Shown: piece after piece, positions 38,640 through 42,878 of the stretch | Position numbering within the stretch: position 1 is the stretch's first letter | Layout: every line of letters starts with the position of its first letter | Source of the DNA: Thermococcus sibiricus MM 739 | GTDB taxonomy: Archaea; Methanobacteriota_B; Thermococci; Thermococcales; Thermococcaceae | Assembly (NCBI RefSeq): GCF_000022545.1 | Contig: NC_012883.1 | Coordinates: forward strand, 372,001 to 436,000 | Direction: 5' to 3' | Length of the DNA stretch: 64,000 nucleotides | Program-made: the position numbers and the translations under genes | The notes under the pieces: model-generated | Seen by the model: only the letters and a program-made list of their open reading frames with translations | What the model was told of the DNA's origin: nothing | Databases searched by the model: none

Positions 38640-39860
38640 ATGATCTTACAAGTAGCTCTTGATGTAACGGATATAGAACATGCTATTTCTATAGCGGAAA
38701 AAGTGGCACGTGGAGGAGCCCATTGGCTTGAAGTTGGAACTCCACTAATAAAGAAGGAAGGAATTAGGGCAGTAGAGCTTATGAAGAGGAGATTTCCGGA
38801 TAGAAAAATAGTGGCTGATCTGAAGACAATGGATACTGGAGCTTTGGAAGTGGAAATGGCTGCAAGACATGGAGCTGATGTCGTTTCCATACTTGGAGTT
38901 GCCGATGATAAAACAATAAAAGATGCAGTTACCGTTGCTAAGAAGTATGGTATAAGAGTTATGGCGGATTTAATCGGGGTTAAGGATAAAGTAAAAAGAG
39001 CAAAAGAATTGGAAAATATGGGTGTTAATTACATTTTAGTCCATACGGGGATAGATGAGCAAGCTCAAGGAAGAAATCCTCTAGAAGATCTAGAAAAAGT
39101 AGTAAAAGCTGTAAAAATCCCGGTTGCAGTTGCCGGAGGTTTAAACTTAGAAACTATTCCGAAGGTTATAGAAGCAGGAGCTACAATTATTATCGTTGGA
39201 GGAGCAATAACTAAGGCAAAAGACCCTGAAAATATTACTAGGAGGATACTTGATCTATTCTGGGCCGAATATATGCAAACAATCGTAAAAGTTATTCAGG
39301 ATATAACAGACCACATAAAAACAGTAGCTACATCACTAAAACTAGAGCAGGTTAGAGGGATGGTAGACGCAATGATTGGAGCAAATAAAATATTTATCTA
39401 TGGCGCTGGAAGAAGTGGTTTAGTAGGGAAGGCATTTGCAATGCGTCTAATGCACCTTGATTTCAATGTTTATGTTGTTGGGGAAACCATAACTCCTGCT
39501 TTTGAAGAGGGGGACCTTCTAATTGCAATCAGTGGGAGTGGTGAAACTAGGACTATAGTTGACGCTGCGGAAATTGCTAAAAATCAGGGAGGAAAAGTCG
39601 TAGGAATAACCTCCTATAAGAATTCAACTCTTGGGAAACTTTCTGATGTTGTCGTAGAAATTCCGGGAAGAACAAAAGCAGACATTCCTACAGATTATAT
39701 CGCTAGACAAATGCTCACCGAATACAAGTGGATGGCTCCAATGGGAACACTCTTTGAAGATTCAACAATGCTACTCTTGGATGGGGTTATAGCTCTATTA
39801 ATGGCCACATTCCAGAAAAGCGAAAAAGATATGAAGCGGAAGCACGCTACACTAGAGTGA
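38640..39860 (+). CDS. hps-phi: Bifunctional 3-hexulose-6-phosphate synthase / 6-phospho-3-hexuloisomerase
   Basis: A 406-residue natural fusion. Residues 1 to about 210 form the HPS barrel of the OMP-decarboxylase suprafamily (LQVALDVTD, IVADLKTMDTGALE, VAVAGGL). From about 215 a SIS-domain isomerase follows (FIYGAGRSGLVGKAFAMRL, ISGSGETRTIVDAAE). In Thermococcales the enzyme works in reverse ribulose monophosphate direction, making ribulose 5-phosphate from fructose 6-phosphate, because the oxidative pentose pathway is absent. This feeds PRPP for the pyrE-pyrF pathway in this window. The ATG follows GGGGGGTAAATCAAG. First gene of a compact five- or six-gene run. Confidence 0.96.
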   Translation: MILQVALDVTDIEHAISIAEKVARGGAHWLEVGTPLIKKEGIRAVELMKRRFPDRKIVADLKTMDTGALEVEMAARHGADVVSILGVADDKTIKDAVTVAKKYGIRVMADLIGVKDKVKRAKELENMGVNYILVHTGIDEQAQGRNPLEDLEKVVKAVKIPVAVAGGLNLETIPKVIEAGATIIIVGGAITKAKDPENITRRILDLFWAEYMQTIVKVIQDITDHIKTVATSLKLEQVRGMVDAMIGANKIFIYGAGRSGLVGKAFAMRLMHLDFNVYVVGETITPAFEEGDLLIAISGSGETRTIVDAAEIAKNQGGKVVGITSYKNSTLGKLSDVVVEIPGRTKADIPTDYIARQMLTEYKWMAPMGTLFEDSTMLLLDGVIALLMATFQKSEKDMKRKHATLE

Positions 39861-39865
39861 TCTAT

Positions 39866-40621
39866 ATGCCCTCTTTTCCTCATATTTTTATTGGCATTGG
39901 CAGTAATGGGAACAGAGTTGTCCAAAATATTAATATAGAAAAGATTTCAAAACTTTCTATAAATCCCTCCTATTACCTACTTGGCAAATTCCCATTCCGT
40001 CAAAAACTTAGAGATCTTTTCCAGAAAGTTCCAAATGATGCAATATTATGGGTCGTGTTTGAGAATAAGCCAATAAATCTGGAAATACTGAGTGTCCTCT
40101 TGGAATATTTACCTGAGAACCCATTGAAACTTGCATACGTACTTAGTCCTGAAAAAGAATTGATTCACGACCAAAAACCACCATGGGCCCAAGAGTTTGA
40201 TACAGTCTTTTATGATTCTCTCTGGGAATCCCTGCATGATTACAGGGATGCTTCATTGGAGATGGCTTTCCAAATGGCTACCCAAAACATAGGGACCATG
40301 TTTACTAGACTTCATTACTACCTTGAAAACCAAATGCTGGTGAATGTTGATTATGCAGATTTCTTCAACATGGTTAGGGGTAATAACATTGGGATTTTAC
40401 GGTTACTATCCAAAGTTAACTTTGAATGGCATTGGGGGGTTTGGGATAAAGGCCTGATAAACATCTTAGTAGGAGAAAATGTGCCGTTAAGTGATGCTCA
40501 TAGGATACTCTCTAATTTTCAGAAGTTTTTGAAGGAAAAGGATATAATATGGGGTATAAAAATGGAAGAAGGCCTAAATGATCACATTGAGATTCTCTCC
40601 CTTTTAGTGAAGAGGTGGTAA
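39866..40621 (+). CDS. Degenerate FtsZ/tubulin-family protein lacking the GTP-binding loop
   Basis: 251 residues. The N-terminus IFIGIGSNGNRVVQNI (7-22) parallels the FtsZ T1 loop. Residues 127-170 (DASLEMAFQMATQNIG, then NQMLVNVDYADFFNMV) align with FtsZ helix H6-H7 and the T7 loop: NVDYAD at 160-165 equals the catalytic NxDxxD. Residues 196-245 (KGLINILVGENVPLSDA, KDIIWGIKMEEGLND) align with the FtsZ C-terminal domain. The glycine-rich GGGTGTG T4 loop is replaced by WVVFENKPIN (62-71), and the protein is about 120 residues shorter than FtsZ. It probably does not bind GTP as FtsZ does. Start at the ATG 39866, five bases after the HPS-PHI stop. Function unknown. Confidence 0.7.
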   Translation: MPSFPHIFIGIGSNGNRVVQNINIEKISKLSINPSYYLLGKFPFRQKLRDLFQKVPNDAILWVVFENKPINLEILSVLLEYLPENPLKLAYVLSPEKELIHDQKPPWAQEFDTVFYDSLWESLHDYRDASLEMAFQMATQNIGTMFTRLHYYLENQMLVNVDYADFFNMVRGNNIGILRLLSKVNFEWHWGVWDKGLINILVGENVPLSDAHRILSNFQKFLKEKDIIWGIKMEEGLNDHIEILSLLVKRW

Positions 40622-40622
40622 T

Positions 40623-41282
40623 ATGAAAGCTGTTTTTTTCGATATAGATGGAACCCTTCTGACAGAAAAGCCCTTAATAATGCTCCTTCTTCCCCAAGTA
40701 TATGATAAGCTATCAAAAAAGTTCGGGATTTCTAAAGGCGACGCCCGATTAAGATTTCTTAGAGAAATATCTGAAAGAAAAAACACTTACGAATGGCATG
40801 ATTGGGATTTCTTTTTTGAGAGTTTTGGGATTGATTTTAAATATGAGAATTTAATAAAGACATATCCACACAAGATTCAAGTATTTCCCGATGTGATTCC
40901 CACTTTAGAGTGGCTGAGAGGGGAGGGATATAAATTAGGAGTAATAACCAGTGGCCCCGAATATCAGAGATTAAAACTTCGAATAGCTAAGTTGGACAGG
41001 TACTTTGACGTGGTTGTGACGAGGGAAGATGTAAAAACTGTGAAACCTGATCCTAAGATATTTTTATATGCATGTGAGAAGGTAGGAGTAGAACCAAAAG
41101 AAAGTATAATGATAGGAGATGACTTAAATCAAGACGTTTATGGCCCTAGAAATGTAGGTATGCTACCAATTTGGATAAACCGGGAAGGAACGGAGGATTA
41201 TAACTTTGCTGACTTTGAGATTAGAAGCCTTCATCAACTTAGAAGTATCTTAGGGGGGTTTAGAGATGAAAGAGATATTTAA
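40623..41282 (+). CDS. HAD-superfamily hydrolase
   Basis: A 219-residue phosphatase-type HAD protein. Motif I FFDIDGTLLT (nucleophile Asp and acid Asp), motif II VITSGPEYQ, motif III lysine in VKTVKPDPKIF and motif IV IGDDLNQDV are all present. The helical cap (residues 20-85) makes it a C1-cap member, like phosphoglycolate phosphatase or beta-phosphoglucomutase; substrate unknown. It starts one base after the FtsZ-like stop and overlaps the next small gene by 17 bases. The ATG follows GAGGTGGTAAT. Confidence 0.88.
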   Translation: MKAVFFDIDGTLLTEKPLIMLLLPQVYDKLSKKFGISKGDARLRFLREISERKNTYEWHDWDFFFESFGIDFKYENLIKTYPHKIQVFPDVIPTLEWLRGEGYKLGVITSGPEYQRLKLRIAKLDRYFDVVVTREDVKTVKPDPKIFLYACEKVGVEPKESIMIGDDLNQDVYGPRNVGMLPIWINREGTEDYNFADFEIRSLHQLRSILGGFRDERDI

Positions 41283-41445
41283 GAGGGAAGGGGTTTTTGT
41301 AGAGTTTGAAGAAAAACGAGTGAGACTTGAGAATGGAGATGAAGTTGTTCACAAGCAAGAACACCCTACAGAACTCTGGTGGGGGCTTAAAGAGACTATA
41401 AAGGGCAAAAGAGTTAGATTAATTGTATACGAGATTGAGGAATGA
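41266..41445 (+). CDS. Small conserved-looking protein of 59 residues
   Basis: ATG at 41266 after TTAGGGGGGTTTAGAG; the frame runs MKEIFKREGVFVEFEEKRVR to a C-terminus RLIVYEIEE with a TGA at 41443-41445. It contains two amphipathic beta strands, a short acidic turn (ENGDEVVHKQ) and PTELWWGLKE. Fills the otherwise empty gap between the HAD and DUF4392 genes: it overlaps the former by 17 bases and ends three bases before the latter. Its codon use and ribosome-binding site are like its neighbours'. I do not recognise the family. Confidence 0.75.
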   Translation: MKEIFKREGVFVEFEEKRVRLENGDEVVHKQEHPTELWWGLKETIKGKRVRLIVYEIEE

Positions 41446-41448
41446 AAA

Positions 41449-42258
41449 ATGATCGGGCATTTGATTAATACTGATATCTATGGTAGGGATATCTTAAAAG
41501 TATATTTAGAGTACAGAGAGAAAAATTTCAATTTTTTGGAAAAGGCCAAGAACCTTTTCATAGAAAATCTTGATAATGTTCTTATTGTAACATGCTTTCC
41601 AATACCCCCGATGCAAATAGCAGAAACTGATGGTCCACCAGGAGCTGTGGCTTTATATAGGGCTATTGAGAGACTTGGGGGGAGAGCGGAGATACTAACA
41701 TGTGAAAAAATAAGTTCTGCCCTTAGAGGATTTAAAATCAATTTTGCAAAGAAACCACGAGTTAATCAATATTCTTTGTTAATAAGTGTTGAAACACCAG
41801 GGAGAGCAAAAGATGGCAAGTATTATTCCATGAGCGGGTTAGAAATTGAAATGTCACCATTTGATGAGTTATTCTTCCAGGCTAAGGAACTTGGGGTTCC
41901 CACAATTGGTATCGGAGACGGAGGGAATGAGATAGGGATGGGGAATATTGCGGAGATCGTGAAGAAGTACGTTAAATTTGGGGATAAAATAACCAGCATT
42001 GTAAAGGTTGATGAGTTAATACTCTCAGCAGTCTCTAATTGGGGGGCTTATGGTCTGATTGCTCAAGCTTCCCTTGAAGTTGGAAAAAATCTCCTGAGAG
42101 ATTGGGACGAAGAAAAGGTTCTAAGAGCTTTAGTCTCTGAGGGGGTTATAGATGGCGTCATTAAAAAACCTCAGCTTAGTGTTGATGGCATTCCACTTGA
42201 GGTTCACAAAAGGTTCCTAAACCTGCTTAATTCAATAATAGAAAGTAAAATTAGGTGA
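41449..42258 (+). CDS. DUF4392 (glutamate cyclase-like) protein
   Basis: 269 residues of the DUF4392 family, related to the C-terminal domain of mammalian D-glutamate cyclase. Hallmark segments are ETDGPPGAVALYRAIERLGG, a mid-protein SVETPGRAKDGKYYSMSG and the acidic GIGDGGNEIGMGN. The enzyme probably acts on an amino acid-derived ring or lactam; the archaeal substrate is unknown. It starts three bases after the 59-residue gene; its ATG follows GAGGAATGAAAA. The stop overlaps the leader of the HD gene. Confidence 0.8.
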   Translation: MIGHLINTDIYGRDILKVYLEYREKNFNFLEKAKNLFIENLDNVLIVTCFPIPPMQIAETDGPPGAVALYRAIERLGGRAEILTCEKISSALRGFKINFAKKPRVNQYSLLISVETPGRAKDGKYYSMSGLEIEMSPFDELFFQAKELGVPTIGIGDGGNEIGMGNIAEIVKKYVKFGDKITSIVKVDELILSAVSNWGAYGLIAQASLEVGKNLLRDWDEEKVLRALVSEGVIDGVIKKPQLSVDGIPLEVHKRFLNLLNSIIESKIR

Positions 42259-42263
42259 GAAGT

Positions 42264-42878
42264 ATGAGGATTGAAGATTACATAACTGATGAAATTAGCC
42301 TAAAACTTATTAAAAAAGCAGAGGAGTTTGCTAGAAATTTTTTTGAACGAGAGGGAACCCATGGATTTTCACATGTAAAGAGGGTCTTCAACCTTTGTAT
42401 GCATATTGGTAAGGCTGAGGGGGCGGATTTAGAAGTTTTAGCATTAGCGGCTTTTCTTCATGATGTTGCAAGGCCCTTGGAGGACAAAGGAATCGTTGAG
42501 GACCATGCTAAAGAGGGTGCAAAAATTGCCTACAGATTTTTGACTTCGCTCAAGTATTCCAAAGTAGACGAAGTGGTTCATGCAATAGAGGCCCACAGGT
42601 TTTCAAGGCCACCAGACCCAAGAACACTTGAAGCAAAGATTCTCAGCGACGCTGATAAGCTTGATGCAATAGGAGCTATTGGGGTTGCAAGGGTTTTCAT
42701 GTACTCTGGAGAGCATGGGAGAGATATAGAGTTTTCAATTAAACATTTTGAAGAAAAAATTCTGAAACTTAGATATTTGATGTATACACATACGGCTAAA
42801 AAGCTTGCCGAGGGAAGAAACAAATTTGTAGAAGAGTTTATTGACAGACTGGTAAGGGAGATTGAGGGAGAGCTTTAG
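42264..42878 (+). CDS. HD-domain phosphohydrolase
   Basis: About 204 residues of the HD superfamily. Metal-binding pattern: HGFSHVKRV (His), FLHDVARP (His-Asp), then a conserved AHRF segment and LSDADKLDAIGAIG (Asp). Related to YedJ-type nucleotide or phosphate-ester hydrolases; substrate not known. Start at the ATG 42264 after AGGTGAGAAGT. Last gene of the HPS-PHI run. A copy of the hairpin repeat begins 13 bases after its stop. Confidence 0.85.
   Translation: MRIEDYITDEISLKLIKKAEEFARNFFEREGTHGFSHVKRVFNLCMHIGKAEGADLEVLALAAFLHDVARPLEDKGIVEDHAKEGAKIAYRFLTSLKYSKVDEVVHAIEAHRFSRPPDPRTLEAKILSDADKLDAIGAIGVARVFMYSGEHGRDIEFSIKHFEEKILKLRYLMYTHTAKKLAEGRNKFVEEFIDRLVREIEGEL

Follow-up and report, generated by a model that had tools for sequence, protein, structure and literature searches.

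Directly downstream of the gene for HPS-PHI, the genome of Thermococcus sibiricus MM 739 carries a gene, the product of which recalls FtsZ but has no GTP-binding loop. Is this protein truly derived from FtsZ and, if so, does it still act on FtsZ or does it serve the sugar metabolism to which it is genetically linked? We here examined the locus in a window of 64,000 nucleotides, that is, the whole stretch of DNA analyzed, corresponding to positions 372001–436000 of the 1,845,800-base single-contig genome. The features discussed below, including the protein in question termed mini-FtsZ, are as follows.

38640–39860, plus strand: HPS-PHI, bifunctional 3-hexulose-6-phosphate synthase/6-phospho-3-hexuloisomerase, linked upstream (NF041755, 536.6 bits against a cut-off of 500)
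39866–40621, plus strand: mini-FtsZ (pseudo-FtsZ), 251 amino acids, identified from the ORF, orthologues, and profile and fold matches
39893–39910, plus strand: T1-like loop G10-I-G12-S-N-G15, with the three glycines in every orthologue reaching this region (A15 in one)
40058–40078, plus strand: F65-E-N-K-P-I-N71 replacing the GGGTGTG T4 loop, with N71 invariant in 56/56
40148–40222, plus strand: rebuilt T5/T6 region, residues 95–119, with invariant P95, E98, L99, P105, W107, D117 and S118
40343–40360, plus strand: T7 loop N160-V-D162-Y-A164-D165, with N160, D162, A164 and D165 present in 56/56
40454–40597, plus strand: C-terminal domain (FtsZ_C match, residues 197–244), without a C-terminal tail past the last strand
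40623–41282, plus strand: HAD-family phosphatase, linked downstream, a close relative of the solved 4ygq
41266–41445, plus strand: ORF of 59 amino acids overlapping the 3' end of the HAD gene; many relatives have a comparable short ORF after HAD
41449–42258, plus strand: DUF4392/D-glutamate-cyclase-like gene (GLUCM-like_C), a less constant neighbor
42255–42878, plus strand: HD-domain gene, a less constant neighbor

The mini-FtsZ ORF runs from an ATG at 39866 to a stop codon ending at 40621 and encodes 251 amino acids, in agreement with the earlier note on this DNA. The five-base gap given there is also correct, as the stop codon of HPS-PHI ends at 39860 and the spacer occupies 39861–39865. An alternative in-frame GTG is present at 39857, from which mini-FtsZ would overlap the HPS-PHI stop codon, but the alignment of the orthologues led us to prefer the ATG as the start. 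On the other side, a single base separates the mini-FtsZ stop codon from the HAD phosphatase gene.

The affinity to FtsZ was hardly visible to the family models. When searched alone, mini-FtsZ matched FtsZ_C over residues 197–244 with an E-value of 0.016, and the best FtsZ_C match of any family member was 4.7e-4. The scores fell below the cut-offs of both TIGR00065 (17.4 bits against 295.2) and PF12327 (16 against 27), and PF00091 was not among the family models listed. Comparisons based on profiles were far more decisive. The profile of the orthologues retrieved the FtsZ of M. jannaschii with an E-value of 1.5e-7 and, in hhalign, matched the profile of Thermococcaceae FtsZ2 locally over residues 109–244 (4e-13) and FtsZ1 over almost the whole length (8.7e-9), FtsZ2 being the best match. 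The single CetZ sequence compared, that of the same genome, showed no similarity in hhalign (probability of 1.3%), and we dismissed CetZ as the origin on the basis of this comparison. In the tree with FtsZ1 and FtsZ2, the stem of mini-FtsZ was too long for it to be placed as the sister of FtsZ2.

The predicted structures agree with the profiles. The first AlphaFold2 model, built from the alignment of 27 orthologues without templates, had a pLDDT of 86.4 and a pTM of 0.86, and all of the 50 best PDB matches listed by Foldseek were FtsZ (E-values from 2.8e-11, TM scores up to 0.72). A second AlphaFold model, made for a divergent member with 48% identity to the protein studied here, had a pLDDT of 78, and its 50 listed PDB matches were again all FtsZ (E-values from 1.5e-11, TM scores up to 0.74). 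FtsZ structures were part of the training of AlphaFold, while the alignments supplied for both models held no FtsZ sequence. In a search against viral folds, phage FtsZ-like proteins came out on top, albeit with weaker matches than those in the PDB. Thus, the profile search and structural model proposed earlier as checks both point to FtsZ, with no significant match to an unrelated family, and uphold the core of the initial reading, namely a FtsZ paralogue devoid of the GTP-binding loop but equipped with the loop acting on the GTP of a neighbor.

Orthologues of mini-FtsZ, normally in a single copy, were detected in 89 of the 94 Thermococcaceae genomes, so that the distribution check across Thermococcales suggested at the outset reveals a family-wide protein. 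The named relatives are all Thermococci, and no match reached 1e-8 in the 302 genomes outside Thermococcaceae among the 396 sampled across archaea. True loss was rejected for the five remaining genomes: in four (G050, G057, G062 and G064) contigs break at or in the locus, and in the other (G036) the whole region is missing from a draft that is 69% complete. No homologue was found on plasmids or viral contigs besides an ordinary plasmid FtsZ. Nearly all of these genomes possess three canonical tubulin/FtsZ genes, and mini-FtsZ is additional to FtsZ1, FtsZ2 and CetZ. Intact FtsZ proteins, which are possible targets of mini-FtsZ, are present in all Thermococcaceae examined.

The protein evolves faster than FtsZ2 (mean distances of 0.71 and 0.31, respectively), yet a decaying pseudogene or an annotation artefact can be virtually dismissed. 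One genome, G070, does hold a broken extra copy; on the other hand, dN/dS was approximately 0.05–0.2 in the unsaturated pairs, and the orthologues are intact family-wide, with about 50 invariant residues. These values led us to discard both a spurious ORF and a decaying gene. Consequently, the term "degenerate" used in the earlier note misleads, as the gene is under strong purifying selection throughout the family and its nucleotide face has not decayed but has been rebuilt with new invariant residues. We regard mini-FtsZ as an almost certain descendant of FtsZ maintained by selection. The broken copy of G070 lies in a second hps-phi/mini-FtsZ/HAD locus (L138; G070:C2:359000-364500) with a remnant of HPS-PHI and an apparently intact HAD gene, and the intact mini-FtsZ of this genome is located elsewhere.

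What has been kept of FtsZ, and what has been lost? T1, the NVDYAD of T7 and the C-terminal domain, which had initially been aligned with FtsZ by eye, are all recognizable. The replacement of the T4 loop by FENKPIN was confirmed as well, GGGTGTG being found in none of the 27 orthologues scanned. In the profile-profile comparison with FtsZ2, mini-FtsZ has no T3 segment and no T4 loop, and the stretch following T7 is partly missing. In the predicted structure, mini-FtsZ ends one residue past the last strand, whereas FtsZ1 and FtsZ2 of the same genome extend further. In FtsZ, subunit association or hydrolysis hinges on six conserved residues: a nucleotide-side set of D46, Q48 and R143, and a T7-side set of N208, D210 and D213 contributed by the neighboring subunit (S. 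aureus FtsZ numbering; PMC8936486). The T7-side residues, corresponding to N160, D162 and D165 of mini-FtsZ, were each kept in 56 of 56 orthologues, while those of the nucleotide side were found in 0 of 56 at each position. D46 is replaced by A, S, T, G or N, Q48 by Y, and R143, the position of which was located via the spacing from the conserved T5 glutamate, mostly by E. Mini-FtsZ has therefore preserved the trans half of the composite active site and lost the cis half. The aspartate of H7 was likewise absent from all 56 sequences, which have S, A, T or G instead. Altogether, mini-FtsZ very probably does not bind GTP in the canonical manner.

The former nucleotide face has nevertheless not been left to drift. 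G10, G12, G15, N71, P95, E98, L99, D117 and S118 vary little or not at all, and the predicted secondary structure puts them in or close to the C-terminal ends of strands, the position of a Rossmann-like pocket. We infer that this face may have been rebuilt to accommodate a new ligand or partner. Retention of the residues invariant in FtsZ2 showed no significant excess in the C-terminal half of mini-FtsZ over the N-terminal one (p=0.18), and we abandoned the idea of a preferential retention of the T7/C-terminal half.

Mini-FtsZ belongs to a fixed group of genes. Among the 43 loci compared, in which a few genomes are counted twice, HPS-PHI is located immediately upstream of mini-FtsZ in 39, a histidine-phosphatase-superfamily gene intervening in the remaining four, and HAD immediately downstream in 42, overlapping or at most three bases apart. 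This trio is constant while the outer neighbors vary. The neighbors named earlier, HPS-PHI and the DUF4392 and HD genes, are indeed present, in the order HAD, 59-amino-acid ORF, DUF4392 gene and HD gene, but the tightest neighbor, the HAD phosphatase, had been left out. In the loci compared, neither ftsZ1 nor ftsZ2 nor any other division gene was linked to mini-FtsZ. The HPS-PHI fusion scored above the cut-off in 87 of the 396 genomes, with all matches listed belonging to Thermococcaceae, and thus shares its taxonomic range with mini-FtsZ. In Thermococcales, HPS-PHI converts fructose-6-phosphate to ribulose-5-phosphate and formaldehyde for nucleotide synthesis (PMC12628685). In one distantly related archaeon, the HPS and PHI genes are adjacent and no mini-FtsZ accompanies the pair.

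Some further observations were made on the locus. In one Thermococcus subgroup (L040, L044, L058 and L089), a gene of the histidine phosphatase superfamily (phosphoglycerate-mutase-like, approximately 233 amino acids) lies between hps-phi and mini-FtsZ, and the mini-FtsZ/HAD pair is unbroken. The HAD neighbor at 40623–41282 matches the solved structures 4ygq, 4ygr and 4ygs with an E-value of 3e-100, and coordinates therefore exist for work on this possible partner. The 59-amino-acid ORF at 41266–41445 matched no family above the cut-off, with a weak RecJ_C-like match (E=0.07). The sugar-regulator motif of Thermococcales, TATCAC-N5-GTGATA, was not found upstream of hps-phi.

How could a protein with only one half of the site act? 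In a published model, a free FtsZ monomer joins via its GTP-bound top face at the filament end exposing T7 (PMC8936486). The likeliest reading, at odds not far short of even, is that mini-FtsZ docks via T7 onto GTP-loaded FtsZ as a cap, a sequestering partner or a GAP. The target would be the cell's own FtsZ, FtsZ2 or FtsZ1. The T7 face of mini-FtsZ would meet the exposed, GTP-bearing top face of a monomer or of the terminal subunit of a filament, and D162 and D165 would be supplied for the hydrolysis of the GTP of the bound FtsZ. As mini-FtsZ offers no GTP face, the next subunit would have no place to dock, and FtsZ would end up capped, sequestered or discharged. Co-production with HPS-PHI, which provides ribulose-5-phosphate for nucleotides, would tie filament dynamics to the supply of pentose or GTP, with the rebuilt pocket as a possible metabolite sensor; we hold this coupling to metabolism as tentative. 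The most far-reaching form of this reading is a family-wide pseudo-FtsZ that keeps only the trans half and serves as a dedicated cap, sequestrant or GAP of FtsZ produced from the ribulose-monophosphate gene group, so that the supply of pentose or nucleotides would set division. We assign it a probability of roughly 0.3.

Several lines bear on this reading. The retention of T7 is notable because a thaumarchaeal FtsZ without the GTP-binding motif is devoid of T7 as well (PMC3684127); by analogy, a pseudo-FtsZ could dispense with T7. Against an action on FtsZ, mini-FtsZ is linked to sugar metabolism and not to division genes, and its T7 could be conserved for another role, such as the binding of an ion or a partner. 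The strong conservation of the former GTP face also counts against a simple one-sided cap, which needs no such face. A mirror-tree comparison of evolutionary rates with FtsZ2, HPS-PHI and HAD singled out neither FtsZ2 nor another partner, the signal being dominated by phylogeny. Mini-FtsZ might instead have left the cytoskeleton and, as a subunit of HPS-PHI and/or HAD, regulate or scaffold them; its pocket would perhaps bind a sugar phosphate or a nucleotide, and its T7 acids would now serve to bind a metal or a partner. The nearly constant positions of HPS-PHI upstream (39/43) and HAD downstream (42/43) amid variable outer neighbors, the common taxonomic range with the HPS-PHI fusion and the invariant polar residues at the C-terminal ends of strands all fit such a subunit, and we take it as a serious candidate, albeit clearly below even odds. 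It sits less well with the rates, since HPS-PHI is near-invariant (mean distance of 0.09) and mini-FtsZ is fast (0.71), and with HPS/PHI enzymes that function without mini-FtsZ elsewhere, including in the archaeon with adjacent genes. Furthermore, a metabolic subunit would have no obvious reason to retain the exact NxDxAD catalytic motif. The two roles combine if mini-FtsZ reports metabolism to FtsZ.

The conservation of both faces allows yet another arrangement, in which copies of mini-FtsZ stack head to tail with no need of GTP, T7 of each packing against the rebuilt face of its neighbor, into an oligomer that is independent of nucleotides or dependent on another ligand. The faces that would meet, T7/S7/S9 and the replacements of T1, T5 and T6, are indeed conserved, but the canonical contact loops T3 and T4 are gone, and we consider self-assembly improbable. 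Still less credit is due to a divergent but working GTPase, the altered pocket of which would still bind GTP or some other nucleotide: the three glycines of T1 and P95 and E98 of T5 are in its favor, but T3 and T4 are absent, and D46, Q48, R143 and the H7 aspartate occur in 0 of 56 sequences.

UgtP and OpgH are metabolic effectors of FtsZ; they couple metabolism with division, as proposed here for mini-FtsZ, and their folds are unrelated. The FtsZ regulators SulA and MciZ, also of unrelated folds, block one face of FtsZ, again as proposed for mini-FtsZ. MciZ attaches to FtsZ at the bottom (T7-side) face (PMC8936486), whereas mini-FtsZ would dock with its own T7 face on the GTP face of FtsZ.

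Within the superfamily, archaeal FtsZ2 and then FtsZ1 are the closest to mini-FtsZ, sharing the fold, the T1 glycines, H7, the NxDxAD of T7 and the C-terminal domain. In contrast to them, mini-FtsZ is of 251 amino acids, lacks T3, the GGGTGTG of T4, the nucleotide-side catalytic residues and the C-terminal tail, scores under the family cut-offs, and is linked to hps-phi and HAD. The T4 loop of FtsZ2 itself is GNGTGTG rather than GGGTGTG in most Thermococcaceae (L056, L065, L109–L112, L115, L119 and L066), and GGGTGTG is kept in L067, L113 and L114. Nmar_1262, the FtsZ of Nitrosopumilus maritimus, is likewise an archaeal relative without the GTP-binding motif; it lacks T7 and did not polymerize in yeast (PMC3684127). 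Mini-FtsZ differs from it in keeping T7, in being much shorter, and in coming from a different lineage, one in which full FtsZ is present too. FtsZl-1 and FtsZl-2 are, as mini-FtsZ, divergent prokaryotic relatives of FtsZ/tubulin, but they keep GGGTG(S/T)G and were found with it (PMC2875224). Mini-FtsZ, which has no such motif, would escape that survey because GGGTG(S/T)G was its search motif. CetZ, including that of Thermococcales, shares the superfamily and the genomes with mini-FtsZ; it differs in keeping the GTP site, and the CetZ of the same genome has no profile similarity to mini-FtsZ. The cetZ gene of Thermococcales adjoins pilus genes, and a survey of the archaeal superfamily reported a further divergent member for just two strains of Thermococcales (PMC9856176).

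In open-licence papers, we found no literature on mini-FtsZ or on any dedicated FtsZ pseudoenzyme. While the superfamily is known, the mini-FtsZ subfamily, a pseudo-GTPase with a half-site, appears to be undescribed. Whatever its role, Thermococcaceae have a fourth protein of the FtsZ family, which escapes surveys based on motifs and family models. Two subunits together form the hydrolysis site of FtsZ, and a natural protein with one half would directly show how a one-sided FtsZ behaves. Mini-FtsZ could be a pseudo-FtsZ dedicated to regulation; should it be a metabolic subunit instead, it would represent a clear recruitment of a cytoskeletal GTPase into sugar metabolism. The genetic systems of Thermococcus make its role testable.
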